Below are positions 1-25,612 of a stretch of DNA of 64,000 bases, piece by piece (the first letter of the stretch is position 1; every line of letters starts with the position of its first letter). The position numbers were made by a program, and so were the translations under genes. The stretch spans positions 2,790,001-2,854,000 of the forward strand of contig NZ_BAAAWH010000001.1 of assembly GCF_039534975.1 (NCBI RefSeq), in the 5' to 3' direction. The notes beneath the pieces were generated by a model. It saw nothing but the letters and a program-made list of their open reading frames with translations, was not told the DNA's origin and did no database searches. Source of the DNA: Microbacterium terregens (GTDB lineage: Bacteria > Actinomycetota > Actinomycetes > Actinomycetales > Microbacteriaceae).

Positions 1-1110
1 CGTATCGGCGAGATTCGCGAGATAGTGATCGGTCACGAGCGCCTCGATTCGGACCGCTGCCGGGCTCCCGCCGGCGTAGATCTCACGAACGCGCTCGCCG
101 AGTTCCTGCAGGCTTGCCCGCTGAAACCCGAGCAGCCTCACCTGCGGGGCGCGAGGGTTATCCCAGCGCGGATCCCCGCTGAAGTCCACACCGATGCGAG
201 CCGCGAGCGGGGGAAGTCGCTGCACGCCCTGGGTCCCGTCGAAGAATGCGGGCGTTCCCGTGATGAGCACGTAAAGCCCGGGAAAGCGGCCGGCATCCAC
301 CTCATCGAGCAGCTGACGCAGAGCGTTCAGCGCCTTCTCGCGCACGTCGCTGCGCACCCGCTGCAGCGTCTCCACCTCGTCCAGCACCAGCACGAGGCCG
401 CGGTAGTCCGTATCGCGGAGCACTGCGAGCAACCCCTGCATGAAGCCGAACGCCCCGAAGTGGTCGAGGTCTCCGCGGATCCCCGCTCCACGCCGGATCG
501 CCGCAGCGACATGGGGCTGTCCGCCCAGCCAGGCAATGAGACCATCTGCGGTCTCAATTTCACCGCGGACAGTGGCCGCGTGATAGCCGCGCAGCGCCGC
601 TGCGAACGCCGGGGCCGTACGGGAGACGACGGCGAGCCGCTGTTCCAACAGCTGCTGCGCATGCTCCGCGAGCGAGGCTCGGTCGACGGCGCTCGCGCCG
701 GCGGCGACGGCGTCCTCCTCCAGCACGCGCAGCCACTCGTCGATCACTTCGCGGAAGGCGCTGGGTGCAGTGGATTCCGTGGCGAGGTTTTCGGTGACGC
801 GCCGATAGATGGTCTCCAGACGATGAAGCGGAGTCTCGGTCTCCGAGATCTGCACCTCTGCGGTCGCGAAACCCCGCTGCTTCGCGGACTCGATGAGCCA
901 ACGCGCGAAGAACGTCTTCCCCGCGCCGTACTCACCCCGGACGGCCTTGAACACTGCGCCGCCCTCGGCGACGCCGTCCAACTCATCGCCGAGCGCATCC
1001 TGGAATCGATCGAGCCCAACCGCCATAATGTCCAGCCCGCGTTGGGGCACCGTTCCACGTCGCAGCGCATCGATGATCTCGCGTCGGCGACGGGGGCTCA
1101 CGGTCGTCAT
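1..1110 (-). CDS. brxD: BREX-2 ATP-binding protein BrxD (3' end outside window)
   Basis: The frame is open from an ATG at 1110 down to base 1 (370 codons), so the C-terminus is missing only because the window ends. A Walker A motif (GEYGAGKT, residues 59-66) and a Walker B-like stretch (LVLVLDEVE, about residues 239-247) mark a P-loop ATPase of the BREX BrxD/DUF2791 type. The start overlaps the pglZ stop as ATGA, which implies translational coupling. In type 2 BREX loci brxD follows pglZ and is itself followed by the helicase brxHI, so brxHI is expected to the left of the window. The exact biochemical role of BrxD is not established; ATP-dependent action with the other BREX proteins is an inference from the family. 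Confidence 0.9.
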   Translation of the reverse strand, partial: MTTVSPRRRREIIDALRRGTVPQRGLDIMAVGLDRFQDALGDELDGVAEGGAVFKAVRGEYGAGKTFFARWLIESAKQRGFATAEVQISETETPLHRLETIYRRVTENLATESTAPSAFREVIDEWLRVLEEDAVAAGASAVDRASLAEHAQQLLEQRLAVVSRTAPAFAAALRGYHAATVRGEIETADGLIAWLGGQPHVAAAIRRGAGIRGDLDHFGAFGFMQGLLAVLRDTDYRGLVLVLDEVETLQRVRSDVREKALNALRQLLDEVDAGRFPGLYVLITGTPAFFDGTQGVQRLPPLAARIGVDFSGDPRWDNPRAPQVRLLGFQRASLQELGERVREIYAGGSPAAVRIEALVTDHYLANLADT

Positions 1111-3764
1111 CGCTGGCTCCCCAGTCCGAACTGCTCACGAAGCAGCGACTCATCGAGCGTGACGGTGACTTGATCAGCGTCGAGTTCGATGACGGGGTAT
1201 CCATCTACGTTCAGCAGTCGACGCAAGGACGCTAGCAACCCCGGAAGAGACGTCGCCGCCACACCCGCCGCGACAGCGATCGTGTCACGGTGGGCGCGGC
1301 CGCCTCCTGCCAGAAGCGACGACACTATCGCTCGCACGGTCTGGTCCTCGATCGGATGCCGACCGCCATGGCGTTGCCTGTCCAGGTAGGTTTCGCTACT
1401 CACAAGCCGCTCGTCGAGAGCGACAGCGAGACTCGCAGCCGGTACAGCTGGAGTGGCGGGCAGTTCGTCAAAGAGCGCTGGCCCCGCTGGAGCCTGCTTG
1501 CGGGCGCGAGACTTCGCCGGTGCGACAGACACCACGGACTCCGCCCGCACAGGCTCGTTCCACCACACCGGCTCCTGCGGCGGTGCGTCTACCCAGCAGA
1601 CAGGGTTCTCGACACCGTTCGGCTTGATCACGACGATCGGAATGGCGATCTCGGCCATCGCCGCGCCACCGTGATAGCCAGCCTTCTTGGCCGCGAATCG
1701 CACGCCGTCTGACACCGCGAGCACGCTCACGCCACCCGGCACGAGCACGCGCGGGCCGCTCACGAGCACCTCATCGCCCTGCACTGCCCCCGTAGCCGGG
1801 TCCCTGAATCGCGCGACTGCTCCGGGAGCACTGCGCAGCTCACTGCCTCGCTCAACCATGTGTCCGTGGTCGGAGGTCAAGATCACGATGCGCCCAGCGT
1901 CGCGCGCGGCCGCGAGCAGCGCCGACAGGTTGGCGATCTGATCGATGTGCCAGCGCAGAGAATCAACCTCGGCGGTCGCGAGCGCGTCGTCGATGGTGTT
2001 GAGCACGACGCCAACGAGCTTGCGTCCAGGGTCGGCGATGGCATCAGTGACGGTCGGCGGCAGCGCATGACCCGCGTCAGATCTCAAGTCGTCCTTGTGG
2101 AACACGATTCCGTGGGCCACCGCCGCGAAGCGGGATTTCTCGGTCTGTTGGTTGCCGCCACGCAGCTCCCCCGCAAACAGCGAGGTGCGTGAATACTCGG
2201 TGATCGTCGGCAGTGCGGCGACGGCGGCCCCGCGCCACGGGTTCGTCGACCGAACAATCTCTGACCAGCCACGGCCGGGCAATTCGGGTGCCAGCTCGGT
2301 CGCAGTGGCGAAGCTCATCCCGTCGAGCACAACGAGCAGCACATTGTGCTGCGCGGTGAGAGGCACGACAACCTGCGCCAACAGGTTCTCAACCCCCGGC
2401 ACAGGACCGTCGGCACTTGCCGCGCCCGTAAGGAGGCCGGCGGCAATGCGGTCCTGCTCACGGCGCACCAGCTGCACGGTGTGAGCGAGCGCCCCATATG
2501 CCCGAGCGAGCGCAGCGTTGTGATCACCATCCCAAATGTCACCCAGCGCGCGCTCGACCCACGCACCGTCCGCCGCATACGCCTCAACGGCCGCAGAGAA
2601 GTTCGCGGGCGCCGTGCGCGGTTCGCTCAGCCACCGCACGAGCCGTACCGCCATCGCCGCGATCGGGAGCGACTGCGCGATGGTCGATGCGGCATGGTGC
2701 CGTTCAACGGTGGCGAAGGCGCGCTCGACCTCTGCCGCACCATCCGTGCCGGGCGAGGCCGCTGAGACTTCGATCGCTGCCGCCAGTGACGCAACGCGCA
2801 CGCGCAGGCCCGCAGGCAGAAAGTCGGATGCCTCGGCGCCCGCCACCCAGTCAAGCTCCGCACAGAGAGCCTCCGCCTGCTCGAGCACCTCGCGCCCATG
2901 CGCATCGGCGAGCAGGCGCAGGGTAATCCGTCTCGACGCGTCGCCGAATCGCTGTGCGGCAGCTGCTGGCGCTCCGGTGCCGATGTATGGTTCGATCCGC
3001 ACGCGCGCAGCCGCCGTCGGGCCATCCGGCGCACCTAAGCCAGAAGCCCACAGCTCGCCAACGACGAGCCCGATGGCAGTTACTGCGATGTGGCCACTGC
3101 CCACCGCCGCGCGCAGGGCGAGACCGAAGTGCGCGCCGATGTAGGTAGAGGCCGCACGGATCAGCGACTCGCGCGTTTCTGGAGCGAGCTCCCGGAGCCG
3201 TGCGCGTACACCCGGATCGTCGAGCGGCGTCAGGAAGGTGACCAGGTCAAGGTCATCGGGCCTGCTGAGTCCGAGCATCGCAACGATAAGTGACCGCACG
3301 ACGTGGTCTGGAGTGAGAACCGCTCCGGGGGCCGGGGGAAAGCCACGATCCGGTCGCAACGACATCAGCAGTCCCGGCACCCATGCACCAAGATCGTGGA
3401 CATGCCGCGGGACGATCTGGTCGCGCACGCCGAACAACCCGGGAACCATGCTCCATTCGTCGAGTTCACTCACCCGCTGACGATGAGCATCGAGCACCAC
3501 CGCCGAACCGAGCTCGCGTTCAGTGAGCGATGTCAGCACCACGACGACTCCGTTATCGGGCGCAGCTCGCATCGCATCAAGCGCCGCCATGCCAGACACG
3601 CCTTCGACCACTCGCACAGGGGTGTCACGTACCACGATGACGGCCGGACCCGCCCACCTCGGCTGCCCTCGCACGAGCAACATGCGAGCCTGTCTGCGTG
3701 CCGACGAGAGCCATGCGTCGACGTACTGACGCAGGGCTGTCTCCGTGATGGTGGGGGCAGCCAT
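1107..3764 (-). CDS. pglZ: BREX-2 phosphatase-superfamily protein PglZ
   Basis: An 885-residue protein with the alkaline-phosphatase-superfamily core of PglZ: a metal-binding strand LLVVLDGMS near residues 476-484 and a second metal site around SDHGHM near residues 631-636. PglZ is the signature protein shared by BREX systems and is needed for phage exclusion and for BREX methylation in studied systems. The gene starts 3 nt after the pglY stop, and its own stop overlaps the brxD start, so it is an internal cistron of one operon. Length and position (pglY-pglZ-brxD) fit type 2 (Pgl) systems. Both metal motifs look intact. Confidence 0.94.
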   Translation of the reverse strand: MAAPTITETALRQYVDAWLSSARRQARMLLVRGQPRWAGPAVIVVRDTPVRVVEGVSGMAALDAMRAAPDNGVVVVLTSLTERELGSAVVLDAHRQRVSELDEWSMVPGLFGVRDQIVPRHVHDLGAWVPGLLMSLRPDRGFPPAPGAVLTPDHVVRSLIVAMLGLSRPDDLDLVTFLTPLDDPGVRARLRELAPETRESLIRAASTYIGAHFGLALRAAVGSGHIAVTAIGLVVGELWASGLGAPDGPTAAARVRIEPYIGTGAPAAAAQRFGDASRRITLRLLADAHGREVLEQAEALCAELDWVAGAEASDFLPAGLRVRVASLAAAIEVSAASPGTDGAAEVERAFATVERHHAASTIAQSLPIAAMAVRLVRWLSEPRTAPANFSAAVEAYAADGAWVERALGDIWDGDHNAALARAYGALAHTVQLVRREQDRIAAGLLTGAASADGPVPGVENLLAQVVVPLTAQHNVLLVVLDGMSFATATELAPELPGRGWSEIVRSTNPWRGAAVAALPTITEYSRTSLFAGELRGGNQQTEKSRFAAVAHGIVFHKDDLRSDAGHALPPTVTDAIADPGRKLVGVVLNTIDDALATAEVDSLRWHIDQIANLSALLAAARDAGRIVILTSDHGHMVERGSELRSAPGAVARFRDPATGAVQGDEVLVSGPRVLVPGGVSVLAVSDGVRFAAKKAGYHGGAAMAEIAIPIVVIKPNGVENPVCWVDAPPQEPVWWNEPVRAESVVSVAPAKSRARKQAPAGPALFDELPATPAVPAASLAVALDERLVSSETYLDRQRHGGRHPIEDQTVRAIVSSLLAGGGRAHRDTIAVAAGVAATSLPGLLASLRRLLNVDGYPVIELDADQVTVTLDESLLREQFGLGSQR

Positions 3765-3767
3765 GAC

Positions 3768-6700
3768 TCAGTCGATCTTCCAGCTGATCGTGACGTTCAT
3801 GCCAGCGCCCGCCTTGTCACCGATCTCGGTCCTCAACTCGGCGAGAACTTGATCGAGATCCGTCAACGGGACGTGGCGGACCCCAGATGATGCGGTCTCC
3901 TCAGGGGCCGGAGCTACTGGGGCCGGAGTCGCTGGCCCAGGCCCAACCGGCGCAGGTCCCGGTTGCACGACAAGCGCCCGCGCCCTCGCAGCAACGTCCT
4001 TCAACCTGGGCTCCAGCGGCACGACCGACTCGTCCACCGCCGCAGCCGTTCGCAGTTCGGCCAGCGCTGCTTCGAAGGACGCGTCTGCTCGGGACTGCGC
4101 AGCGGAGATGATGCCCCAATCGAGTCCGCTGAGTTCGCGCGCCAACCGGTCAGCAGAACCGAATGTGCGGCCGAATGCGCTTAGCTCCATCGGCAAATCG
4201 AACGTTGCGAGGGTCTCGATGAGGTCCTTGTCCGAGCGAGCTTTCGTCACCGCCATCACGAGACCGTCCACTCGCCGCGCCGTCGCCAGCCGTCCAGCTT
4301 CAGCCGTTGCCTCGACGCCAAGCACTGCAGCATGCCCATCTAGCTGCGCGACCAGATCCGCCACTGCACTCGCCGCTGCATTCGAGCGCACCGCGGCCGC
4401 GAATCTTGCGACGGCCCGCGGCGTCAGGTTCGTCTCAGGAGCAACCCCGAAGACTCCTCCAGCGCGCGTCTTCGCAACTTCCCAGTCCTCGCTCGTCGGA
4501 AGGTTGGCTTTTCGCGCGGCGGCGCCGTCCGGCAGCGACTGCAGGCTCGGTTGATCCACGCCGACGAACTCCCAGTTGCCGAGCGACGCCCATGTGAGCA
4601 GAACTGCATTCTCCATCATCGCGGTCATACCCCAGGCGCTGAGCTTGGACCGCAGCCCACCGACGGTGATCCCCGCGCCGAGCTCTCCCTCCCAGCGCGC
4701 GAAGTCCGCGGTCCATCCGAAGTGCGCAGCATCGACGACGACGACGTTCTCGTTGAGCGCTCCGAGACGCAACGGCACCACGATCTCACGCGCGAGCTTT
4801 TGCTCTGTCGAGCCGAGCCCTTGACGCCGTCCGCCCGCTTCGATCGTTGCCGTGACGAGGTCGAAAGCGTCCACGAGACGGCGGGGTGAAACTTCTTCGG
4901 CTCCGAGATCGGGGTGATTCGGAAACTCATGCTTCCAGGCCGTATCGAGCGCGTGCCGCAGACCCGCAAGAAGCGTACCGGTTGGCGGCGGGGCGATGAT
5001 GAGTCCATCGATGAGCGGAGAGAATATCTGGTTCCCAGCGAGATCGGTGCCGACGTTGACATCATCCGGTGCGTTGACACCGTACGCCTGCCGCAGCGCC
5101 GTCGTCAGTCCCTCCCGAAGCGTGCGCTGCCGTGACTCCAACGTCTGCCTGGCCGGCCCTCTGTCGGCAAGCGGCAGGTGGTCGGAGTTCGCATCGAAGC
5201 GGCTGCCAGTGAGCAAGTAGTCCAGCAGAACGAGCTTGCCGAGGTCTTCCTGGCGAACCTCGGAGAGGAAGTTGGGAATCCAGGCGATCGTGTTCGCTGA
5301 CCTCCCCTGCTCGCGCAGCTTCTGCAAACGGACGACGTCGTACGCCGGCGAGTAGGTGCCGCTGTCGTACGGGAAGTCGACGACGACGCGCCACTGGTCA
5401 TCGCTGTGGATCAAGTCGCTGTCGAGCACTTCGGTGTCGTCGCGCACATTGCCGAACTTCACCGTCACCGAGCGCTTGTGGCCGCGCCACACGTGACCGA
5501 GCTGCAACCCGACAAGACTGACGGATGCCGCGGGCAGGCCCAGCTCGTCGGTGATGAGTCGACGCACGAGCTCACGCCTGGTCTGCAGATTGTCTTCGGT
5601 ACTCACGCGCTCCAGGATCGAGTCATAGTCGACGCCGCTAAGGGTGGCAGTGATGATCGGATCATGCCCGTCACCGATGCTGATCTCGCCGAACTCGGTC
5701 GCCCACTGGCGCACCGTGCCGAGTACCTGGCCAGCTTCATCGCCGGGAATGAAGGCCGAGATGGTGCCCCAGTTGAGTGCGGCGAGCTTCGCGGCGGTGA
5801 GGTTCGCGAGCGACCGCGCCTCTGGGGCGAGTGAAGCAATGAGCACGGTCTTCGCGAGGCGATCTTCCGTGACGAACGGATGCCCGCGGTCGAGGTCGGT
5901 GGCCTGGCTTTCGGTGAGCCCGTGCTTGCGCAGCAGGTACGGCCGCATCTTGTCACGGTAGAACTTGGCCGAGACGGCGAAGTGCCGCTTCATCTCTTCG
6001 GTGAGCGGCTGCGATCCGCCGAGAACGATGGGTGTGTATAGATCGCCAACCGGAATGACGTCGCGGACCAGCAAGCTGTCTCGGCCATCGCTGAGCAGTT
6101 CGGCCATGAGCTTGAGGGCGGTGCGCTCGCGCTGCATGAGAGTCGACAGCGCCACCATCGTGTCGACGAGAGCGGGGCTGAACGGGTAAACGTCAGCGAA
6201 TGCTTTCTCGTCGGAATTCGCCTCGTCGGAGAGTAGATACCCCCACGCCGCGTAGTCGCGCTTGACCTCGGCGAGCGCCGTCGCAAGGGTGAGTTTCGCC
6301 TCCGCATCGATGGGGCGAAGGAGTCTCTGCTTGACGATCTTGGGAAGGTCGGCGGCGTGCAAGCGGATCTTATCGAATCGGTCTTCCCAGTACGCGAACA
6401 GTTGGCCCTGGGCGACTCGTTGCGCGCCCGCGACGTGCGTCCCGAGGAAGTCGCGCAGATCACGCTGGCGCGCAAGAAACGACGTGATCGGAATCGGGAG
6501 GTTGGCGGCCGCGTTTTCGGCGAGCTGGACAACCTTTTCGATCTCGTTCTGCACCCATGCCTGGTCGGCGAGGTGTTGGCCGAGCCAGAGCACGATCTCG
6601 TCGATAAGGAGGACGAGCCCCTGGTAACCAAGGCTCTTCGCGTGCGCTGTCAGCGCGCGAAGACCGTCGGCCATGGGCAACCACTCACCGGCGCGGACGG

Positions 6701-7385
6701 ACGAGGAGTAGTACGCCGACACGAGGTCACCGACAAGACGTTCCCGATCGGCATTCCCCGGCTCAGAGCTCGCGGCCGCATCAAAGGTCTGCGGGTCCCA
6801 CGCCGAGCCCAAGTCACCCCACGCAGAGTCCCCTCCGCCGAGCCCATCGAAGAATGACTCGTCTCCCATGCGCTCGCGCAGGGTGCGCGCGTCAGCGAGC
6901 AGCCCGTCGCTCACATGCAAAACGGGAGGCGGAGCGTCGGGATGCTTCACTGCGATCGTGGTGAGATAGCCACCAAACAGCGCGTCTTCGAAGGACTTCG
7001 CTCCAAGAAGGTTGTAGTCCAGCACGAGCAGACGACGTTCGAGTGTCTCTTGCCGCGCCGCAACGACCGCTTCAAGGCCCGGGATCTGCCGTGCCCCGAT
7101 GTCACCCGAGAGCAACAGGTGCAGCACCGCCATGTAGTGCGACTTACCGGAACCGAACGATCCATCCAGGAACGCACCGCGCGATGACTGCCTGCTGAGC
7201 GAGCCGGCGACGAGGTCTAGTCCTTCGCCGACCGCCTCGGCGATCGCGTCGGTGACGACGTAGTCGCGGATGGTCTGCTCGTGTCGAGCAACGCTCTCGT
7301 CGAGCTTGATGACGAAGTCCGCCGCTTCGACCCGTTTTGGCAGATCGATAAGCTCGCGCAGCGGAGAGTTGAGCGTGAAGGTCAT
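3768..7385 (-). CDS. pglY: BREX-2 large P-loop ATPase PglY (BrxC-like)
   Basis: A 1205-residue protein. The start is the ATG at 7385, which overlaps the pglX stop as ATGA; an upstream in-frame ATG at 7424 lies inside pglX and is less likely. Walker A (GSFGSGKSH) is at residues 75-83, and a Walker B-like LVLLIDEIVLWLG follows around residues 255-270. The size, the N-terminal ATPase and the place between pglX and pglZ identify PglY, the type 2 counterpart of BrxC. A C-terminal proline/alanine-rich linker (about residues 1140-1165) precedes a short final domain. The ATPase probably organises or remodels the BREX complex on DNA; this is inferred from the family. Confidence 0.93.
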   Translation of the reverse strand: MTFTLNSPLRELIDLPKRVEAADFVIKLDESVARHEQTIRDYVVTDAIAEAVGEGLDLVAGSLSRQSSRGAFLDGSFGSGKSHYMAVLHLLLSGDIGARQIPGLEAVVAARQETLERRLLVLDYNLLGAKSFEDALFGGYLTTIAVKHPDAPPPVLHVSDGLLADARTLRERMGDESFFDGLGGGDSAWGDLGSAWDPQTFDAAASSEPGNADRERLVGDLVSAYYSSSVRAGEWLPMADGLRALTAHAKSLGYQGLVLLIDEIVLWLGQHLADQAWVQNEIEKVVQLAENAAANLPIPITSFLARQRDLRDFLGTHVAGAQRVAQGQLFAYWEDRFDKIRLHAADLPKIVKQRLLRPIDAEAKLTLATALAEVKRDYAAWGYLLSDEANSDEKAFADVYPFSPALVDTMVALSTLMQRERTALKLMAELLSDGRDSLLVRDVIPVGDLYTPIVLGGSQPLTEEMKRHFAVSAKFYRDKMRPYLLRKHGLTESQATDLDRGHPFVTEDRLAKTVLIASLAPEARSLANLTAAKLAALNWGTISAFIPGDEAGQVLGTVRQWATEFGEISIGDGHDPIITATLSGVDYDSILERVSTEDNLQTRRELVRRLITDELGLPAASVSLVGLQLGHVWRGHKRSVTVKFGNVRDDTEVLDSDLIHSDDQWRVVVDFPYDSGTYSPAYDVVRLQKLREQGRSANTIAWIPNFLSEVRQEDLGKLVLLDYLLTGSRFDANSDHLPLADRGPARQTLESRQRTLREGLTTALRQAYGVNAPDDVNVGTDLAGNQIFSPLIDGLIIAPPPTGTLLAGLRHALDTAWKHEFPNHPDLGAEEVSPRRLVDAFDLVTATIEAGGRRQGLGSTEQKLAREIVVPLRLGALNENVVVVDAAHFGWTADFARWEGELGAGITVGGLRSKLSAWGMTAMMENAVLLTWASLGNWEFVGVDQPSLQSLPDGAAARKANLPTSEDWEVAKTRAGGVFGVAPETNLTPRAVARFAAAVRSNAAASAVADLVAQLDGHAAVLGVEATAEAGRLATARRVDGLVMAVTKARSDKDLIETLATFDLPMELSAFGRTFGSADRLARELSGLDWGIISAAQSRADASFEAALAELRTAAAVDESVVPLEPRLKDVAARARALVVQPGPAPVGPGPATPAPVAPAPEETASSGVRHVPLTDLDQVLAELRTEIGDKAGAGMNVTISWKID

Positions 7386-10300
7386 GCCTTCTTCCTTCCA
7401 CGGGTTGCGGGTGCGGGTCGCCACGCGAGAACAGTGTCGGCACCAATGCCCAGGCGACCGAGCAGCGCGGTGGTGGCGCCGGAGATGGCGGATGCCGGGC
7501 TCACACCTGATCGTGCGTCGATATCACTGTGCCACTGGTCGAGCCACGGCTGAAGTTCGAGCAGCGCTCCGACGAGCGGCATAACCTGATCGTCCGGCGC
7601 GGCGGCGCGAGACAGGTCGTTGGCGAGTCGTGCGATCGCCTGCCCTCGTTCCGCGTGGTCCCAACGGGCCCAGCCATACAGCTCGGTAGTGTCGTCAGCG
7701 AGTCGCGACCCAGGGAACGAAAGGAACCGCTCTTTGGGAACGTCCAGCTTGCCCCGCGCCGACCAGTAGCTCGGCCTCAAGAAGTCCGCCTGCCCGTACT
7801 TGGGCGGCACAGGAATATCCACCTTCTCGCCCCGATCCTCTGCACGCTGCAGCTCCCAGGTGTGCTGCCACGCACGGAACTTCTCGATACCGGCCGGTTT
7901 GTACCGCAGCGGCGCGAACGCCGGTACCGCCTCGCCCACGAGGAGTTTGCCGACCTCGATCGTCAAGTCGAAGTCCTGCGACCCCGTGTGAAGTGTGAGC
8001 AGCTCACGGAATCGCTCGTCGTGACGCAGATCATCCGCGACCTGCGCCGCGGAGCGGATGAGCGGGCGTCCGGAGCCATCGCTCCAAACATCGGTCGCCT
8101 CCAGCTGGTCCAGGAGCGCGGTTTTGACCGCGTCGGCAAGCAACTCTTCCCACGTGGCTCCAGCCCACCGACGCTTGTACTCGGGGCGCTCCAGGAGCCG
8201 GAGAGAGGGGTCCTCTTGAATCGCCAAGTATCGATCCATCCAGAGCTCGAAGTACCACTTTGGCCACTGCGCGGGCGGACCGGCGGCGTTCGCTGCCCGG
8301 CGATGCCGCTCGAACCAGGCCGTGTTCTCCCAGCCCGGTACGGCGCCTCGAGCTAGTCCCACATCCATAACCCGCTCATTCGGGTCGATGGGGACGAGCT
8401 CGGATACTTCTGGTGCGAGCGCAGGATCAGCGAGCCCATAGGCTACGTATGTTCGCCAATCGACCTCTTCTTGTAGCGCGACCATCTCGCGGCCCAGTCG
8501 GAGCCATTCGCACTTCGAACGTTGAAGATCTAAACGGCCCGCCGCGCCAACGACTGCAGCTGGGGCGACCGTGCCGCGCACGCGAGCCAACTCGTCGATC
8601 TGGCGCGCGAGATCACCAGTCGTGTTTTGCGCTGGAAGAGGGAATTCCTGCAGCTTTGTCGAAGTGAATTCATAGAAGCGCTCCCACTCCTGGTCGGCGA
8701 TTCCGCCGCCGATTCCGCCATTCCCCTTGTCGTGGCTCACTTGTTTGAGCCAGAAGCAGGCGGTGGATGAGTTGAGAACGCCGAGCAGGTCGTAGTGGTC
8801 GTCCTCGGTAGCGCCCTCCGGCAGCTTGATCACCGGCGCCGACTGCTTGAACACCTTCCCGCCCCGGTCGAGCACGAAGTGATTGTGCGTAGCGACAAAG
8901 GCGAACGTGATCGACAGTGGCGTTGCGTACCGCGCCGGAACCCAGCGATACCACGCCCACCATGCGCCATCGGCGTTCGCCACAACCTCACCATCAAAAC
9001 CACGGGTCGAGCGAAGCGACATCCGGTATGACCACAGATGCCGCGCCCACGCAGTGGAAGCATCGAGTGGCACCGGTGACGAGTCTGCTTGACGCGGGGC
9101 AAGTGCGACGACGCCTCCTTGAACTGTCCAATCACGGACATACTCTCCGAGCACAAGGTCCTTTCCGACATGGCGGGAGTCGACATGCCGCAAGAACCAA
9201 GCTCGGTCGAGAAAAAACGGCTCATCGTTTCCGGGGAAGCTTGCGAAGCCAATCGGCATTGGTAGATGGTTGCGAAGAACGGTTGTCGAAGCTCCTTCAA
9301 TCGCCACCTTCAGCTCCGCGGCCCCGCCTCCCGACAGGGACCACGGGAATGACGCGAAATCCTCCCTTCTGACATCTGCAACCGACACGAACCTGCCACC
9401 GTATCCGGGTAACTCAAGATGATCGACGATGTCCCGCCACACGAGACCATTTGCGGGATCACTGGGCTTTTCTGGCTCGCCTCTTACCCCAAGAACAGCT
9501 CGAATGACATCGCTTTGTGGCTTTCGCGGACGGCCGACGAGAATCGCCGTCGGCGTCCCATGGCCAGGGACGTGCGCGCCTGACGTATCGATGATGTGGC
9601 TCAACTCAACGTAGTCCGGCGAGATACCTGTGTACTGCCCCGACAGGAAGTTTTGGATCAGCTTCTTGCCAAACTCTCGCTTCATGAAAGAGTTGGAGGT
9701 GATCTGGCCGACGTAACCGGCGCCACCACCTTCTGCCCTCCGCGCGAGCCGGAAGAGGAGTTCCATGAAAGGTACCGACAGTGCATAGGTGCCAGAGCAC
9801 GTCGAATAGAACTCCCGGTACCGTCGATTAAGGGCGCGGTCCTTCACTGTTATGTACGGCGGGTTCGCGACCACCACGTGGTACTGCCCGGGCGCCAGAA
9901 TGTTCGCGTGCTCCTGCAGGTCCTCTGCCTGGTAGGCGAAATATTCGCCGTCCCCCATATCGAGCTTCGCTTTTGGGCTGTACCCGCCAAGCAGTGAGTC
10001 ACCGATGGCCAGGTGGTATCGGAACGCCGGCGCTGCAGCGAGTGTGGGTATCCCGGCGGCCTTGATCGCCGCGACGGTGAGACGGAAGCGTGCGATCGCG
10101 ATCGCGAACGGGTTGATGTCGACACCATAGATCGAATCGAGCGCGCGTTGGGCGCGATCGCCCTTGTCGAGCCCTGGCGCGGTCGTGCTCCACTTGGCCA
10201 TGAGCCGATTGAACGCGCCGAGCAGGAAGTGTCCCGAACCGCATGCAGGGTCGATCACTTTGAGGCCCGTGAGCCCGAACTCCTTGATCGCTGGAGTGAG

Positions 10301-10978
10301 TGTCAGGTCAAGGATGAACTGCTCGACGAACACGGGCGTCTGCAACAGCGCATAGGTCTTCTTCGCGTGATCGGAGAGGTCTTGGTACAGGTCGCCCAGA
10401 AAGCGCGTGTCGAGATCGGGGTCGCTGAAGTCATGGATGAGCGTGCCCTCGGGCGTCGTCCGCCGGAAGAACGTCAGCAGACCGTCCGACGCGGTCGCCG
10501 AGATCTCGGAGTGCCACACCGCCGAGTGCGCCCGGTCGACCAACGGGGCGCCCGCGGGCAAGTCGGCGAGGGTGGCGAATGCCCGCTGCAGCCAATCGCG
10601 TGACGTCATCGTCGGCGCTGCGGCGTAGAAGGCTGCTTCGTTCTCGACCGCTCGTTCCAGCCCATCGCCGGGTGCCGCGATCCACGGCTGCGCAACGGCC
10701 CGACCATCCTTGGTTGCGCCGAGGAGCAGCCTGTTGTCCTCGCTGAACCGGATGAAGACGGTCGCGATGATCCATGCCACACCGGCTTGGGCGACCTCGC
10801 CGTTGCGCCAGTCGATCCACGCGAGTCCGGTGCGCTCCTTGGCCTGAGCCCGCTGATACTCGTCGCGTAGCCGTGCGCCCCAAACGGAGTAGCCGTCTTC
10901 GGCGCGCACGCGCAGGTCAGCCTCGAGCGCTTTGAGTTCACGCTTGAGGTCGGCAAGAAGTGCGGCTGAATCGATCAC
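7382..10978 (-). CDS. pglX: BREX-2 adenine-specific DNA methyltransferase PglX
   Basis: A 1198-residue protein read from a GTG at 10978 that overlaps the pglW stop as GTGA; a longer frame up to 11299 would lie inside pglW and is rejected. Methyltransferase motif I (DPACGSG, residues 243-249) and the catalytic motif IV (NPPY, residues 372-375) are intact, as expected for an N6-adenine enzyme. PglX supplies the BREX methylation mark that separates host from phage DNA and is also required for defence in studied systems. The long C-terminal half probably holds target recognition. I saw no long homopolymer tract of the sort that drives phase variation in some pgl loci; the longest noticed is an A6 near 9213. 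Confidence 0.95.
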   Translation of the reverse strand: MIDSAALLADLKRELKALEADLRVRAEDGYSVWGARLRDEYQRAQAKERTGLAWIDWRNGEVAQAGVAWIIATVFIRFSEDNRLLLGATKDGRAVAQPWIAAPGDGLERAVENEAAFYAAAPTMTSRDWLQRAFATLADLPAGAPLVDRAHSAVWHSEISATASDGLLTFFRRTTPEGTLIHDFSDPDLDTRFLGDLYQDLSDHAKKTYALLQTPVFVEQFILDLTLTPAIKEFGLTGLKVIDPACGSGHFLLGAFNRLMAKWSTTAPGLDKGDRAQRALDSIYGVDINPFAIAIARFRLTVAAIKAAGIPTLAAAPAFRYHLAIGDSLLGGYSPKAKLDMGDGEYFAYQAEDLQEHANILAPGQYHVVVANPPYITVKDRALNRRYREFYSTCSGTYALSVPFMELLFRLARRAEGGGAGYVGQITSNSFMKREFGKKLIQNFLSGQYTGISPDYVELSHIIDTSGAHVPGHGTPTAILVGRPRKPQSDVIRAVLGVRGEPEKPSDPANGLVWRDIVDHLELPGYGGRFVSVADVRREDFASFPWSLSGGGAAELKVAIEGASTTVLRNHLPMPIGFASFPGNDEPFFLDRAWFLRHVDSRHVGKDLVLGEYVRDWTVQGGVVALAPRQADSSPVPLDASTAWARHLWSYRMSLRSTRGFDGEVVANADGAWWAWYRWVPARYATPLSITFAFVATHNHFVLDRGGKVFKQSAPVIKLPEGATEDDHYDLLGVLNSSTACFWLKQVSHDKGNGGIGGGIADQEWERFYEFTSTKLQEFPLPAQNTTGDLARQIDELARVRGTVAPAAVVGAAGRLDLQRSKCEWLRLGREMVALQEEVDWRTYVAYGLADPALAPEVSELVPIDPNERVMDVGLARGAVPGWENTAWFERHRRAANAAGPPAQWPKWYFELWMDRYLAIQEDPSLRLLERPEYKRRWAGATWEELLADAVKTALLDQLEATDVWSDGSGRPLIRSAAQVADDLRHDERFRELLTLHTGSQDFDLTIEVGKLLVGEAVPAFAPLRYKPAGIEKFRAWQHTWELQRAEDRGEKVDIPVPPKYGQADFLRPSYWSARGKLDVPKERFLSFPGSRLADDTTELYGWARWDHAERGQAIARLANDLSRAAAPDDQVMPLVGALLELQPWLDQWHSDIDARSGVSPASAISGATTALLGRLGIGADTVLAWRPAPATRGRKKA

Positions 10979-13900
10979 GAGGTATCGGCCTTTCGGGTGA
11001 GCGCGGGGGCCGTATCGTGCAGTGCGATCGACGGAGATTCGGGTGCCGCCGCGGAGGTTGCTACGGCGACAGCATCGGGAGCGAGTTCCAGCCAACCATC
11101 GGCACCGTAGGGCATGGGCACGCCATCGAGGTCGGGCGTGCCACCCGACAGCGGGCGAGGGAGCACGAACCAGCGCGCCGCCGCGCGCTGAGTCGACATA
11201 TCCATCACGGTGTTGATCAGATCTGCCAGTCCCAAGCGTGCCAACACTGCGGTGTTGACGAAGACGGTCGGCTGCGAAAGCGCCATCAGTTCGTCCCACA
11301 CCGGGGTAATCGCAATGCGCGCAAGCTGGTGCAGGTTACGGCGGTCTTTGGCGCCGGCATCCTGAGCGTCGGCATTAAGCACCGTCTGCCACTGGATGTT
11401 CCGTTCACTGGCGGCCTTGCGCAGAGCGTCGAGAGCGACATCCGCCAGATCAACCACGCGCAGGTCGTATCCGTACGAGAGCATCGCCGTCGCCACCGAC
11501 ACCGGGCGACGCCGAGAGACAACCAGTACCAGCGCGCTACGATCGCGGACTGACGCTTGCAACCGTGCCGCGACGGCGGGGTCCCCGGCCGCGCGTCCCC
11601 ACGTCGTCGACGACCCGGTCGCGGTACCGGATGCCGCTTCAGCCGTGCGCATCGCGTACTTGCCAAGGTCGGCGCGCCACTCCAGGTACGGCATCGCTGC
11701 CCGTACCGCACTGTCGAGTGCCGGGCGGGAAGGGATGCTGTCAACCGCGGGGAAGCGCGCGCGCACCCGCTGCTCGATCGTCACGATGGCGAGTTCGCGT
11801 GTCGCGGCCGAGCGAAGTGCAAACGCAATTGCTCGCTCAGGCGAAAGCGTCGAACGATACGCCTCACCCATCGACGACATCCGTCCGCCATTCGACAGCC
11901 CGATGGCGAGTTGTGCAACGCGTGCATCACTCAACCGCAGTGGCTGGCTCGCATCCCCCCGCACCTCCTCCCGGAGCCGCGACGCCGTCACCACGTCATC
12001 TGTCGCGAGTAGCGAATCGACAGTCGCGGCGCGGTGCAGGAGCGACTCAAGGTGTGCCTCCGCATCGTCGAAACTCAGACCGGAACCGTCGTCGGGCGCG
12101 TACGCAACGACGATGCGCGTGCGGTCGGCCGCACGCTGGAAAACGAACTTAGGCTCACGGTAACGGGCATCCAGCTCGAGGATCGCCTGCACAACAGCCG
12201 TTGCGACCTTCGTACGCTTCATCTCCTCGTCGATCGTCGATCCATATTCGCGCAGCAGTTTCGCGGCGAGTTCGTCGACCGTCGCGATCCCCTCGAGGTC
12301 GCGGAGCCACCGGGCCACATCATCCGCTGCGGTCCTGAGTGTTCCGCCCTTGCGCAACCTCTTGAATCGATCTTCCGGCGACTCGCCCGGCTTGGCCGAA
12401 ATCGCGTTCAGGAACGTCTCTACGGCAGCGCGACCGGCGACCGGCGGAACTTCAGTGGTCGTATGGGCGAGCCGCTCTCGCCACTCCCTGATGCGGGAGC
12501 TGATCTCGCGACGCACCTGTTCGCCACTGCCACGGATCTGATTGATGACCATCGGGGGTACGCCGAGAAGCTCACCCACGGTCGTCGCGTTGACGCGTGC
12601 TACAACCGACAAAGCACGGGCGCTGAGTCCTGCCTCGGCGAGTGTGGTGTCAAGAGACGCGGCCCCGGCCCGAGCATCGTTCGCCTCGGCTGCATCGTCG
12701 TCGAGGATCGCGCCCACGAGCGCGGTTTCCCACGCCGCGCGCATCGCGTCGAGCGACGGATGCCGGTCCTTCGCTTCCGGAAAGAGCGCAGTCTGGAAGA
12801 AGGCCACCAGTCCGTCGGTGACACCCTTGTCGAACATGCTCGCCTGAACAATCGGGGCATCCACTGCGCTTTCTGGCGCATCCCCCGATTGCCACCAGAC
12901 CTGGTCACCCGACGCGAGCTCAAAGAGTGTCGCGGCGATTGCGAACCGCTCGGCAGCTGAGTCGTACTGGCGCCGAGTGCCAGCGCCGAGATACGGGTCG
13001 AGGTAGGGCCGCGATCCCGACCGCGTGTTCGCCAACGGCTCCTCAGAGAGGGAGAAGTCGAACAGCGTGAGGCGGGGTTTGCGGTTGCCTGGATCAGGTT
13101 TCACTGCGAGGTTCGAGGGCTTGATGTCGCGGTGGAACACTCCCCGGCCTTCGAGGTGCGCCACCATCTCGAACAGGTCGGCCCCGTAGCGCTCCAGCTG
13201 CTCGATCGTCGCGCGACCCTCGAGACGGATGCGATCGGCGAGCGTCTCGACACCAGCATCCGTCAGCAGTAGCCCTTGCCGGTTGCCGACAGGAAGCGGG
13301 CCGTCCAACCGTTTGACGATGCGGGGGTGGTCGAGTCGGTCGAGCACCGACGCCTCAGTCTGCAATCGCGCGGCCGCCGCGTCATCCTTGGCGAGTTTGA
13401 GGATGTCGCCCTCGCGCCCGGTCTCGTAGTCGAGCACTTCGAGCGCCACGCCGGTCGAACCCGCACCGCGGCGACGCGCGATCTCGAAGCGTCCGCCGAT
13501 GATCTCGCCCACCGATGCATCGAGCGGGTCTGATAGCGCAGCGACCGGCTCATCCTCGCGTGTCTCTCGACGAGCGTCCTCGAACCCCGACTGGAACTCG
13601 GCGATGTCGAGCGTGCGGTGTATTTCGTCGAAAGCCGCCGCTTGGGCGACGACCGCGGCGAGCCGATCCGAGATCTCCGGCATGACCGCGCGTGGGTCAA
13701 GACCTGAGGCACCCGATGCCACCAGGGACTCCAGCGCCGGAAGGTTCATTGCTGGCGGGCGGCCAGTCAGGACGGTGAAAGCGACAGCGCCCACGCCATA
13801 GACATCGAGCGTCTGCGCCGACGCTGGGGTGGCGTTTCGCAGAGTCTCGGGTGCGAGGTAGAGGAGGGCGGCCGAATCGACCACGCCCACGAGATCGGTG

Positions 13901-15039
13901 ATGCCCCGCGAGACGACCGTTGCGGGCGTGGTTTCGGAGTCTGGGCGTCGCGCGAGATCCCAGTCACGAATGCGCACGGCGACAGTTCCGTCGGAAGCAT
14001 CCTTCACCCGTACGCTGACCGGAGACAGTGCACGATGGGTGAGTCGCTGGCCGTGCGCGAACCGCACGAGCTCGGCAAGCTCTTGAACGATGCGCTCACG
14101 CGCGTCGAACGTCAGGTCGTCGGCGTGGCGGGTGAGGTACTCGTCGAGACTGAGTTCGTCAGCGTCATGCGCGAAGACGAGCGCGGCCCCCTCTTCGGGG
14201 GTCAACAGTTCGCGGGGACCGATGATGCCCGGATGGTCGATGCCATCCGTGAGTCTGAACTCACGTCGCGCGCGCAGATCGACCGCAGCACGCGTCTCGC
14301 GGTCCGCCCCCTTCGGGTAGGGGAACAGGCGGATGCGACGCTTGGTTCCTGCCACCGGGTGCGTGACGAGATAGTCCTGCCATCCCGGTCCATCGCCGAG
14401 CGGCTCACCGGAATCGAGCGCGTACTGGCCGATCATGCGCTGCTTCGCTCGGGGCATCAGGCCCGCGGCATCCATGAGCGCATCAATCGCCTTCGCCTGC
14501 GTTCCATCGATCGGGTGTGATGCAGTCTGGGCCAGGAGCTGGGAGAACTGAGCGTCGGCGGCGAGCCCTCTCACGCGGAAACTGTCAAGGGCCCACACAT
14601 GCTCGGCACCGAACTGGTCGAGCCTGACTTTCGAGTCACGCCCGTGCAATACAACGGCTTCGTTGACGAACGGGACCGTGTACGGCGGCGCGCCGGCCCG
14701 ATCGGCGAGATCCTTGAGAACGCTCGCCAGTCGTTTCGCCTTATCGTTCGCGAGCTTGCGCGGATTCGGGTGACGCCTGCCCGCGTGAAACCAGTCCCGC
14801 TGGTTTCCGGTGATGTCCCCGTGCCAGCCCTTGAGTTCGACGATGTATAGACCTGCACGCGTGAGAAGGAGAACATCAACCTCGTGGAGCCGACCATCGT
14901 GGTCGGTGAAGGTGACGTTCGCCCAGGCACGGGCGATCCCGTCGTCGGGGAGTAGTTCGCGAACCTTGGCGAGCGCTTCGGCCTCCTGCGCCTGCGCGGC
15001 ATCGCCCATCACGCGCCACAGTGGGGAGTCTGTCCTCAT
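10975..15039 (-). CDS. pglW: BREX-2 NERD/serine-threonine kinase PglW with an extra degenerate kinase domain
   Basis: A 1354-residue protein and the first gene of the operon. Residues about 15-130 form a NERD nuclease-related domain with a VDVLLL...YIVELKG core. Residues about 245-480 look kinase-like, but the catalytic loop reads HRALSP (near 335) and lacks the catalytic Asp, so this part looks like a pseudokinase. Residues about 513-770 form a second kinase domain: Gly-rich loop RRRGAGSTG, a candidate Lys at 548, HRDIKPSN at 636-643, and DFS instead of DFG at 661-663. A helix-hairpin-helix-like stretch follows near 800-840. PglW is the kinase of Pgl/type 2 BREX. The family role in sensing or signalling is known only in outline. 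Confidence 0.93.
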   Translation of the reverse strand: MRTDSPLWRVMGDAAQAQEAEALAKVRELLPDDGIARAWANVTFTDHDGRLHEVDVLLLTRAGLYIVELKGWHGDITGNQRDWFHAGRRHPNPRKLANDKAKRLASVLKDLADRAGAPPYTVPFVNEAVVLHGRDSKVRLDQFGAEHVWALDSFRVRGLAADAQFSQLLAQTASHPIDGTQAKAIDALMDAAGLMPRAKQRMIGQYALDSGEPLGDGPGWQDYLVTHPVAGTKRRIRLFPYPKGADRETRAAVDLRARREFRLTDGIDHPGIIGPRELLTPEEGAALVFAHDADELSLDEYLTRHADDLTFDARERIVQELAELVRFAHGQRLTHRALSPVSVRVKDASDGTVAVRIRDWDLARRPDSETTPATVVSRGITDLVGVVDSAALLYLAPETLRNATPASAQTLDVYGVGAVAFTVLTGRPPAMNLPALESLVASGASGLDPRAVMPEISDRLAAVVAQAAAFDEIHRTLDIAEFQSGFEDARRETREDEPVAALSDPLDASVGEIIGGRFEIARRRGAGSTGVALEVLDYETGREGDILKLAKDDAAAARLQTEASVLDRLDHPRIVKRLDGPLPVGNRQGLLLTDAGVETLADRIRLEGRATIEQLERYGADLFEMVAHLEGRGVFHRDIKPSNLAVKPDPGNRKPRLTLFDFSLSEEPLANTRSGSRPYLDPYLGAGTRRQYDSAAERFAIAATLFELASGDQVWWQSGDAPESAVDAPIVQASMFDKGVTDGLVAFFQTALFPEAKDRHPSLDAMRAAWETALVGAILDDDAAEANDARAGAASLDTTLAEAGLSARALSVVARVNATTVGELLGVPPMVINQIRGSGEQVRREISSRIREWRERLAHTTTEVPPVAGRAAVETFLNAISAKPGESPEDRFKRLRKGGTLRTAADDVARWLRDLEGIATVDELAAKLLREYGSTIDEEMKRTKVATAVVQAILELDARYREPKFVFQRAADRTRIVVAYAPDDGSGLSFDDAEAHLESLLHRAATVDSLLATDDVVTASRLREEVRGDASQPLRLSDARVAQLAIGLSNGGRMSSMGEAYRSTLSPERAIAFALRSAATRELAIVTIEQRVRARFPAVDSIPSRPALDSAVRAAMPYLEWRADLGKYAMRTAEAASGTATGSSTTWGRAAGDPAVAARLQASVRDRSALVLVVSRRRPVSVATAMLSYGYDLRVVDLADVALDALRKAASERNIQWQTVLNADAQDAGAKDRRNLHQLARIAITPVWDELMALSQPTVFVNTAVLARLGLADLINTVMDMSTQRAAARWFVLPRPLSGGTPDLDGVPMPYGADGWLELAPDAVAVATSAAAPESPSIALHDTAPALTRKADTS

Positions 15040-15331: not shown

Positions 15332-15970
15332 TCACGCGAGGACGGCCGCATACGCTGGAGTGACGTCGATGCCGTCTCGCTCGGCGGTCAGCATTCGAAG
15401 CAGGTGACCGTTGACGTGGGGCGACCATCGTGACGATGCCTCGACCTGCTGCGGTGTCATCTCACGAGCCCACAACAAGCCATACGATGATGCATCCAGA
15501 ACTAGCAGAGAGGCGACGTCGAAGTCGAAAGACCGAAACACGGAGAAAACCGCACTGGGGCTGGTGCCCGGCCCGACGGTCCGCGCCTTCACCTGCACAC
15601 GTCGACCATCGCTCGCCGTAAGGTCGTAGGACTTCGCAGAGTTCGGAGCGAGTTGGCCGCCGTAAACGTCCAAAGCCACATACTCGGCGTAGTCGCCGAG
15701 CGGCGCGTTCCCAGTGCGTACGACATCCCGTGCGCGGAGTTCCGCAAGGATTGCTGCGTACCGGCCGAGGAGATCCGCGGTCGAGAACCCGGCGAGCGGC
15801 CGATCGGCTGACTTGGCCAGCTCTTGAGTCACGAGGCCTATTTGTTCGTCCGTGAGGTTCCACCTAGACACATCTGGTGGGAGGCTCCCAGAATGCGCTC
15901 GCAAGACCTCACGCACCCGCTTCGGAGAAACATCGAGCCGCTTCGCTACGTCATTTGGCGTCGTCACCAT
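15332..15970 (-). CDS. Putative PD-(D/E)XK-like nuclease domain protein next to BREX
   Basis: A 212-residue protein of unknown exact family. The N-terminus (residues 1-30, NDVAKRLDVSP...VREVLR) looks like a helix-turn-helix. The central part has a conserved-looking Glu (YAEYVALD, about residue 95), then SYDLTASDG and QVKART (about residues 113-128). This E...D...QxK layout is typical of PD-(D/E)XK nuclease folds, and DUF6998-type proteins look similar as far as I recall. It lies upstream of pglW in the same orientation, separated by 292 bp, so it is probably a separate transcription unit inside the defence island. A restriction-like or DNA-repair-like role is an inference. Confidence 0.6.
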   Translation of the reverse strand: MVTTPNDVAKRLDVSPKRVREVLRAHSGSLPPDVSRWNLTDEQIGLVTQELAKSADRPLAGFSTADLLGRYAAILAELRARDVVRTGNAPLGDYAEYVALDVYGGQLAPNSAKSYDLTASDGRRVQVKARTVGPGTSPSAVFSVFRSFDFDVASLLVLDASSYGLLWAREMTPQQVEASSRWSPHVNGHLLRMLTAERDGIDVTPAYAAVLA

Positions 15971-16009
15971 ATCGTCACGGTAGCGCTGAAAGCGTCTAAA
16001 CCGCGCTCG

Positions 16010-16798: not shown

Positions 16799-16847
16799 CG
16801 TTCGGAGTGGCCGAAGGATCTAACTGAGCAACATGGAGAATGGACTC

Positions 16848-17162
16848 ATGAACGATCTCTTGTCGGTCTTCGACAGCGATGGTACCGAATCCACCGAGAA
16901 TCGGCCGCTTCTCATGACCGCGCATCAACGCGCCGAGATCAGGTCGCTCTTCGCGAAGCTGGGACTCGAAACGGCCGACCTCCAGTTCGACTTCGCCGCT
17001 GAACTAACAGGAGTGAGAATCGCGTCGGTGGGTGAGCTGGAGGCCACCACCGCTCAACGGCTCATTGAAGGCCTGCATCGCCGCATCCACAACATGGGCC
17101 GCACGACAACCGGCAACTCTTGGGATGATCGCGAAGAGGACACCTGGATCGACCGCCTCTAG
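16848..17162 (+). CDS. Small acidic hypothetical protein
   Basis: A 104-residue acidic protein of unknown function. ATG 16848 is preferred because GGAG lies 9 nt upstream (16835-16838); an ATG at 16833 lacks a well-placed site. The C-terminal half contains the pattern LTGVRIASVGELEATTAQRLIEGL, whose middle resembles the small helical module that ends several phage and mobile-element single-strand DNA-handling proteins (a tail after 'sxxELtxxeAxxLI'). That resemblance is weak. It is the only plus-strand cargo gene before the integrase, so it may belong to the mobile module. Confidence 0.55.
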   Translation: MNDLLSVFDSDGTESTENRPLLMTAHQRAEIRSLFAKLGLETADLQFDFAAELTGVRIASVGELEATTAQRLIEGLHRRIHNMGRTTTGNSWDDREEDTWIDRL

Positions 17163-17546: not shown

Positions 17547-18674
17547 ATGGGCAGCATCACTTCGTACGAAACGGTGAAGGGCCGCCGCTACCGCGTTCGC
17601 TACCGCAAGCCTGATCGCACCGAAACGCAGAAGCGCGGCTTCACGACGATGCGCGAGGCGAAGCTCTACCTGTCCATGGTCACCGTGTCCAAGTCGAAGG
17701 GCGAGTACATCGATCCCGTGGCGTCGCGGGTGCCGGTCCGGATGTTCGCCGACAGCTGGCTCCGGTCGAAGCAGCCGCCGATGTCGAAGCCTTCGTACTA
17801 GACGCTTGAGCGGGCGTGGAAGAACCACGTCGCTCCAGTCTGGGCAGACAGGGAGATCTGGTCGATCCGGCGGTCTGAAGTTCAGGACTGGGTGTCAGAG
17901 CTCGCGACGGAGAAGTCGCGCACGGTCGTCCTTCGCGCGCTGGGAGTCCTCGCAGGCATCCTCGATGTCGCCATCGATGATCGTCGCCTTGCGAACAATC
18001 CGGCGCGACACATCCGCAATCTCCCTCGGAGCGGACCAGGCAAGCGCCGCGTCTATCTCTCGCACGACCAGGTGGCGACGTTGGCGGCATGCTCGGCGTA
18101 TCCGACAATGGTCCTCACCTTGGCCTACACCGGCCTGCGCTGGGGCGAGGCGACCGGGCTGCGCGTGCGGAGTGTGAATCGACTGCGTCGACGCTTCGTG
18201 ATCGAGGAGAACGCGGTGATGATCGCCTACGAGATCCACGTCGGCACGCCCAAGACCCACGAGAAGCGCTCGGTCCCTTACCCGGAGCGCCTCGCTCCGA
18301 TGATTGAACAGGCTTGCGCCGGCAAGGGCCCGGAAGGACTGCTCTTCGGCGACGGCGTCAACCACATGCGCAACTCAGGCGCACAGGGATGGTTCGCGAA
18401 CGCGGTCCGCCGCGCGCAGGCTGTGGACCCATCGATCCCGCGGCTGACGCCTCACGACCTCCGCCACACCGCCGCGTCGCTCGCCATCAGCTCGGGCGCG
18501 AACGTGAAGGCCGTGCAGCGCATGCTCGGGCACGCGTCGGCGGCCATGACGCTCGACACCTACGCCGACCTCTTCGACGACGATCTGGATGCCGTCGCAT
18601 CGCGCCTCAACGACGCAATGCCGCTCGTGGCGCTGCCGGCGGGTCCGCAGACCCGCTACCGCCAGCCGAAGTGA
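17547..18674 (+). pseudogene. Tyrosine recombinase/integrase with an in-frame amber stop
   Basis: The frame starting at ATG 17547 encodes an N-terminal AP2-like DNA-binding arm (SYETVKGRRYRVRYR) and then stops at TAG 17799-17801 (codon 85). The same frame resumes at once and runs to 18674 with a complete phage-integrase core-binding and catalytic domain: Arg in TGLRWGEA (about residue 197), HDLRHTA (about 306-312), LGHAS (about 329-333) and catalytic Tyr in LDTYADL (about 339). There is no frameshift, so this looks like a nonsense change (for example CAG to TAG) or a base error. A truncated product could start at GTG 17892. It lies 208 bp from the tRNA-Arg 3' end, the expected place for a tRNA-targeting island integrase. 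Confidence 0.85.
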
Positions 18675-18882
18675 TCGCAGAGAGCAGATTGCTCAGTTTT
18701 CCGACGCGGCGCGAGACGCTCAAAGTGCTCGTTTTCGGCGTTCGGAGACGCCGGACGCAGCGCTGCGAAGGGCCTTGTCGTCGGCTCACAGCTTTCTCAA
18801 ATGCGGCCAACAAGCGGCCAAAAAGGCATTCGAAGTGGCCTGAACACAGACGAAACACCTGGTCAGAGGCAAAAAAAGACTG

Positions 18883-18954
18883 TGCCCCTGGAGGGACTCG
18901 AACCCCCAACCCTCTCCTTAGGACGGAGCAGCTCTTCCATTGAGCTACAGAGGC
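18883..18954 (-). tRNA. tRNA-Arg (anticodon CCT), probable island attachment site
   Basis: Reading the minus strand from 18954 gives a full cloverleaf. The 7-bp acceptor stem is GCCTCTG/CAGGGGC with one G-T pair, and the D-stem is GCTC/GAGC. The anticodon loop GTCCTAA gives CCT, and the T-arm loop is TTCGAGT between GGGGG and CCCTC. The CCA end is not encoded. The 3' end faces the integrase, so the T-arm/3' half is the likely attB/attL core of the BREX-bearing island. Confidence 0.95.
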
Positions 18955-23688: not shown

Positions 23689-23738
23689 CAGCGGGGTCCT
23701 TCGCGCGAGGTCGGGCGGGTGCTGCGGAGCGGCCCGGG

Positions 23739-23947: not shown

Positions 23948-24027
23948 ACCGGGGGGTGGGGGTCGCCGACCGCCGGAGGGTGGGGCTCGACCGCCGGGTG
24001 GTCTTCCCCGACCGCCGGGGGGTGGGG

Positions 24028-25611: not shown

Positions 25612-25612
25612 G

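Follow-up and report, generated by a model that had tools for sequence, protein, structure and literature searches.

A complete six-gene type 2 bacteriophage exclusion (BREX) operon lies across the left edge of a 64,000-nucleotide stretch of the Microbacterium terregens genome (the window; G000:C1:2790001-2854000, from a 3.57-Mb genome in 7 contigs). With a probability of about 90%, it is the cargo of a 38.7-kb element of an integrative mobilizable family in the 3' end of a tRNA-Arg(CCT) gene; this estimate covers the reading as a whole, including the working, stranding, cargo exchange and cassette exchange proposed below. Coordinates refer to the window unless marked as genome coordinates (window coordinate plus 2790000), and the left-flank genes were read from L003, the 20-kb stretch adjoining the window on the left.

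All six genes are located on the minus strand in the order pglW-pglX-pglY-pglZ-brxD-brxHI, with overlapping or near-touching junctions; start codons were set by family alignment together with these junctions.

10975-15039, minus strand: pglW, 1354 aa, with a NERD nuclease domain, a degenerate kinase-like domain and a second kinase domain with an HRD motif (residue 636)
7382-10978, minus strand: pglX, 1198 aa from GTG, N6-adenine methyltransferase with NPPY at 372-375 and variable blocks 545-695 and 749-955
3768-7385, minus strand: pglY, BrxC-like ATPase, 1205 aa from ATG, Walker A GSFGSGKS
1107-3764, minus strand: pglZ, 885 aa, PglZ domain 475-639
1-1110 and on to genome 2789800, minus strand: brxD, 436 aa in total, Walker A GEYGAGKT
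genome 2787726-2789807, left of the window, minus strand: brxHI, 693 aa, PADLOC BrxHI 917 bits

The GTG of pglX overlaps the pglW stop and the ATG of pglY the pglX stop, pglZ starts 3 nt past the pglY stop, brxD overlaps the pglZ stop, and brxHI and brxD overlap by 8 nt. Proteins were compared with PADLOC, NCBIfam (at curated cut-offs) and Pfam profiles. The PADLOC scores were 1042 bits for PglW, 1476 for PglX, 1189 for BrxC-PglY (residues 22-1217 of the 1218-aa frame), 741 for PglZ and 564 for the part of BrxD within the window. The curated cut-offs were passed by PglZ (NF033446, BREX-2 PglZ, 708 bits against 200), PglX (NF033451, 1459 against 400) and PglW (NF033442, 1024 against 990). The domain order NERD, degenerate kinase, kinase in PglW matches the description of type 2 BREX (PMC12839542), and residues D481, D632, H633 and H635 of PglZ are invariant across four aligned loci. 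None of the six proteins contains an internal stop. A sequence search of PglX against solved structures matched BrxX/PglX only weakly (E about 1e-4), so that a fold comparison was needed. The preliminary description of the window had listed pglW to brxD as running in one direction with such junctions, which the profile matches and junctions bore out, and had placed brxHI to the left, where it was indeed located. The operon is complete once the left flank is included, since this contains the remainder of brxD and the whole of brxHI.

The element spans genome 2770194-2808903, with 1-18903 inside the window, and is bounded by the following features.

18882-18954, minus strand: tRNA-Arg(CCT), the integration target; relative to the core, the 3' part of the gene is on the side of the element
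18886-18903, no strand: right attachment site, the 18-bp core CCCTGGAGGGACTCGAAC, equal to the tRNA 3' part
genome 2770194-2770211, no strand: left attachment site, 14/18 identical to the core, 13 bp exact

For comparison, the corresponding regions of 14 relatives were fetched, 12 of them at tRNA-Arg(CCT) and two around tRNA-Arg(ACG); the same right-end sequence stands beside the tRNA 3' end in the window and in 5 of the 12 relatives with tRNA-Arg(CCT). When the tRNA 3' part was searched in about 57 kb leftward, one 13-bp match was obtained, at genome 2770199. Assignment of the left site rests on the adjoining 150–200 bp, which align with the left ends of sister islands, so the degraded site could be recognised. 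In G017 and G019, the exact core is repeated 21.0 and 23.9 kb away, respectively, and the sequence inside their left repeat aligns with the genome 2770194 region. Across 13 islands, the core at the left end is kept at 18/18 positions in seven, 17/18 in four, 14/18 here and 9/18 in G010. The 38.7-kb span follows from the left-end alignment and these core matches. The distal repeat that the preliminary description had predicted thus exists, but it is degraded, whereas seven sister islands retain exact 18-bp repeats.

Comparison with relatives lacking the island, as proposed earlier, revealed an empty site in G013. DNA matching our left flank (87% identity) stops there about 140 bp from tRNA-Arg(CCT), and our right-flank genes lie on the opposite side of the tRNA. 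The left flank was detected (E 1e-100) in 3 of the 198 genomes of the genus sample, in which G000 is counted; the empty-site synteny therefore rests on this one genome.

The element belongs to a family that is widespread in the genus and shares three genes.

17547-18674, plus strand: tyrosine integrase running towards the tRNA, Phage_integrase E 4e-20 for the second part
genome 2783071-2785815, minus strand: MobF-type relaxase, 914 aa, TrwC domain E 8e-27, HUH and Walker A motifs
genome 2770509-2771120, minus strand: left-end gene, 203 aa, with sub-threshold helix-turn-helix-type matches only

At least 44 of the 198 genomes contained the integrase, the right end and the tRNA 3' part (at least 35 in one alignment, G000 included, and at least 9 split), and the relaxase was found in 76 at E 1e-100 or better. 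Genes of 14 islands, this one among them, were called with a simple codon-usage script and clustered by BLASTP; G118, whose contig ends before the left end, and G028, with only the right end in 20 kb, were omitted. Because the gene caller was simple, small island genes may be missed. Three families were common to the islands, namely the relaxase (14/14), the left-end gene (13/14; the contig of G018 ends before the left end) and the integrase (13/14; that of G010 is a remnant), and the next most shared gene families occurred in 4 of 14. The 12 sister islands with both ends measured 21–35 kb, compared with 38.7 kb here. In G019, G091, G129 and G068, the integrase and the tRNA-side right end are about 4–7 kb apart, and cargo or a second element may have been inserted beside the tRNA. 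Among the top literature matches listed, no mobilizable family at tRNA-Arg(CCT) in Microbacterium was described; the carrier family is apparently without a published description.

The cargo between these constant genes was assessed with 30 large proteins (at least 356 aa, chosen by size and mostly located between relaxase and integrase) from 11 of the 13 sister islands. PADLOC profiles were matched at E 1e-25 by 20 of these 30 proteins, which came from 9 of the 11 islands, against none of 10 large control proteins from the right flank of the window; since PADLOC includes broad families, this represents an enrichment, not a demonstration of function. The matches comprised Mza proteins and a weaker Dsr1 in G105, DrmA of DISARM in G153, type I restriction subunits in G201, G197, G072 and G097, HEC-06/Orf5-like proteins in G197, G072 and G110, type IIG-like proteins in G110, HamB of Hachiman in G160 and a type IV enzyme in G199; two of the 20, in G201 and G097, were weak and to candidate families. 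In the present island, the cargo consists of BREX together with an OLD-type nuclease, a GTPase, a T5orf172 protein and a DUF6998 protein. Because the same frame holds other cargo in sister strains, the cargo, mostly defence where tested, appears to be exchanged on a constant three-gene chassis. A BREX type that is rare in the genus is thereby linked to a mobilizable family of constant frame that occurs in roughly one in five of the sampled species (at least 44/198).

The preliminary description had also noted the integrase beside the tRNA-Arg 3' end, and it is present; however, its splitting by an in-frame TAG (17799-17801) had gone unreported. At this stop the gene is one codon shorter than the uninterrupted copies of G017, G018 and G019, and integrase calls reached at least 376 aa in 12 of the 14 islands, being short in G000 and G010. 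An uninterrupted integrase is combined with exact repeats in G017 and G072. The intact integrase expected of a mobilizable element was thus not found here. Since the integrase is interrupted and the left site eroded, the island looks stranded and is probably no longer able to move on its own. Its relaxase appears intact, and two more relaxase relatives (72% and 57% identity, at genome 2294383-2297103 and 1091098-1093830) and one integrase relative (70% at the DNA level, at genome 1096895-1097355) occur elsewhere in the genome, perhaps as other members of a wider element group; movement of the island may therefore be helped in trans. The earlier view of a mobile defence island over the first 18.9 kb holds as to the island, but its length is 38.7 and not 19 kb, and "mobile" probably belongs in the past tense. 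The BREX island is filed as a derivative of the mobilizable family, not as an active element; the preliminary interpretation was supported, with this relaxase-bearing, mobilizable-element origin added as a correction.

Presence of the operon in all strains of the genus had been named as evidence against a mobile island, and this was not the case, type 2 PglZ being detected in 3 of the 198 genomes, G000 included. The named PglZ relatives were Microbacterium thalli (NE2TL11) and Microbacterium sp. ISL-103, the latter with a BREX contig of only 11.8 kb. The same BREX gene order was shared by M. thalli NE2TL11, G141 and the more distant G075. The M. thalli BREX proteins are 69–88% identical to ours and align nearly end to end, but the carrier differs: the adjoining relaxase is 60% and the nearby integrase about 40% identical, and no tRNA-Arg(CCT) was found within the 80 kb examined around that operon. 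Because of these differences, the operon has apparently changed carrier. In G075 the operon is 34–63% identical and stands beside a relaxase of 60% identity, and the sole relaxase match in 80 kb of G141 is 33% identical and about 29 kb away. Thus, brxHI is followed by a relaxase of this family within 2 kb at three of the four sufficiently long loci (G000, M. thalli and G075). The G075 locus (G075:C1, about 3727783-3748108) represents a second, distant type 2 BREX lineage (PglZ 34–36%), with the relaxase 145 bp past the brxHI match.

Exchange was also apparent within PglX. In 50-residue windows, its identity to the M. thalli protein is 75–92% over residues 1-500, 58% in 501-550 and 28–38% in 551-700, then 84% in 701-750, 38–43% in 751-850, 66–74% in 851-950 and 76–90% beyond. 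The PglX of G141, whose residues 6-200 exactly match a protein named M. mitrae, is more distant over most of the rest, yet 66–76% identical in 551-700. The first block of our PglX is nearest to P0122 (79%), P0124 (74%) and M. mitrae (70%), whereas in the three proteins with the nearest backbones (91/89%) this block is 35% identical.

The pattern was analysed in the 120 homologues listed of 7999 found. Blocks were realigned pair by pair (7140 pairs), since identity in the variable blocks came out too low in the multiple alignment. Identities of the N- and C-terminal backbones were closely correlated (rho 0.82). Block 545-695 was uncorrelated with the backbones (rho 0.04 and 0.08) and with block 749-955 (0.07), as cassette exchange predicts, and block 749-955 was weakly correlated with the backbones (0.35 and 0.32). 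The conserved segment 696-748 departs from the backbone too (rho -0.07 and -0.03); therefore, exchange may involve a unit that extends beyond the first block. Among 113 pairs with a mean backbone identity of at least 90%, the first block was at most 45% identical in 94 and the second at most 50% in 33, and eight pairs were cleanly discordant, such as P0173/P0178 (99/36/100/100/100 along the protein) and P0180/P0199 (100/99/98/38/92); as the pairs are not independent, these counts are descriptive only. In the multiple alignment, with 44–71 close pairs per 50-residue window, identities of at most 45% were absent from 1-450 and 951-1198, occurred twice each in 451-500 and 501-550 and once in 701-750, and numbered 5–38 in the other windows of 551-950.

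We consider it rather probable that type 2 BREX is retargeted by cassette exchange. PglX would have two recognition segments (about 545-695 and 749-955), each exchanged separately, and a stable operon, swapped among chassis, would thereby change its target combinatorially, like type I HsdS. If so, the PglX of the window is such a mosaic. Natural pairs whose differences are almost confined to a single block allow target recognition of type 2 BREX to be tested by methylome comparison, and block exchange is the most testable new point of this work.

The anatomy of the island and its sister elements can be read directly; the following working sequence may be proposed. Recombination by the tyrosine integrase at the 18-bp core would have inserted the element into the 3' end of tRNA-Arg(CCT) and rebuilt the tRNA end. 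By analogy with the family, PglX would place N6-methyladenine marks on host DNA, its recognition blocks determining the site; unmarked phage DNA would trigger the complex, with PglW, as nuclease, pseudokinase and kinase, sensing it and signalling through its kinase activity. PglY, PglZ, BrxD and BrxHI would then act on the foreign DNA, which BrxHI would unwind, so that the phage would adsorb and not multiply. PglZ would restrain PglX, as reported in Streptomyces coelicolor, and may act as a nuclease.

Several observations weigh against this reading. The left site is weak by itself, since chance alone could produce a 13-bp match over about 57 kb, and the empty-site evidence comes from one genome and leaves 4.3 kb beyond the left end unexplained. 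The stop in the integrase could be an assembly error. No conjugation-pore genes were detected among the island proteins scanned with Pfam, which were part of the island genes, and the single proteins of G017 and G019 in the cargo set gave no PADLOC defence match. PglY scored 877 bits on NF047891, under the curated NCBIfam cut-off of 1700, and phage defence in this strain is predicted from the family. The interrupted integrase could also be taken as a sign of decay that extends to a non-functional, passenger operon, but the six genes are uninterrupted, align with M. thalli as described and keep the catalytic motifs looked for, which makes such a state quite improbable.

Stacking of two or more elements at the tRNA, which would make the island a composite with an inner BREX part and an outer OLD-nuclease part, appears unlikely. 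The island is indeed longer than each of the 12 sister islands in which both ends are present, L003:11637 has an att-like string (22 positions with 2 mismatches, by-eye count), and the 4.3 kb beyond the left end are not shared with G013; however, the gene calls for the island include a single relaxase and a single integrase. The string was set aside as an internal junction, because it lies inside an open reading frame (10743-11666) with no element-end motif beside it; it is probably a chance match and possibly an old junction. We give hardly any credence to the view that the operon is ancestral chromosomal DNA lying by chance near a tRNA and an unrelated integrase remnant. The interrupted integrase and degraded left site mean that there is no intact element here, which would agree with it, but type 2 PglZ is confined to 3 of 198 genomes, the left-flank DNA of G013 adjoins the tRNA with no island in between, and sister islands that carry different cargo at this tRNA are framed by the same relaxase, integrase and left end. 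An integrated BREX cargo on a mobilizable-family chassis remains the preferred reading.

Four further genes of the island were annotated.

L003:5041-7134 (genome 2775041-2777134), minus strand: OLD-type nuclease in the left cargo zone, AAA and TOPRIM domains, PADLOC Old 317 bits
L003:16499-17635, plus strand: dynamin-like GTPase (MMR_HSR1), 378 aa, between brxHI and the relaxase, convergent with the operon
15332-15970, minus strand: DUF6998/restriction-endonuclease-like protein with a weak helix-turn-helix-like N-terminus, accessory cargo
16833-17162, plus strand: 109-aa gene with no family match, homologues beside type 2 BREX in G075 and G141

A BREX-specific role as regulator or effector was considered for the DUF6998 gene, upstream of pglW, and rejected, since 13 of 198 genomes contain this gene, compared with 3 of 198 for PglZ, and it has 203 relatives at E 0.001. 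The 109-aa gene adjoins type 2 BREX in three genomes (53–62% identity), in differing place and orientation. Two minus-strand reading frames without a family match were dropped: L003:16373-17095, which overlaps the better-scored GTPase gene on the other strand, and L003:15830-16360, which was not kept by the codon-usage gene caller. Outside the island, the 4.3-kb segment that separates the left attachment site from the shared left flank (genome 2765893-2770193), absent from G013, encodes a BTAD-type regulator of 676 aa, relatives of which occur (E 1e-40) in 4 of 198 genomes, G000 included, and the shared left flank holds a gene that is TetR-like by eye. To the right of the tRNA, 20056-26314 is presumably a dnaE2-imuB-imuA mutagenesis cassette, judging by N-terminal sequences.

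The pglX gene of S. coelicolor has a slippage switch, whereas no homopolymer of at least 7 nucleotides and no tandem array was found in the part of our operon within the window. The motif layout of PglW, PglX, PglY and PglZ is the same in both: in S. coelicolor A3(2) the Walker A motif of PglY occupies residues 75-82, as here, and NPPY of PglX residues 378-381 (PMC4365076), compared with 372-375 here. In that strain, PglX is toxic without PglZ, and the ATPase activity of PglY and the kinase activity of PglW are needed; an antibody detected no methylated DNA in vivo, which calls for caution on the methylation step (PMC4365076). The S. coelicolor Pgl system is on the genomic island GI-4 of about 30 kb, and a different islet is located at tRNA-Arg(CCT) with a 43-bp repeat; pglWX and pglYZ form two loci there (PMC1934918), in contrast to the single six-gene unit with brxD and brxHI described here. 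Type 1 BREX at Salmonella leuX and E. coli thrW likewise lies on tRNA-associated variable islands with different integrases (PMC9009780), but these differ in gene set, hosts and targets. A survey of actinobacterial defence counted only plasmids and prophages as carriers (PMC10482375), so that mobilizable elements like these would be missed. The element described here shares its integrase, relaxase, att repeats in a tRNA gene and cargo with integrative and mobilizable elements (PMC5704250, PMC5357655).

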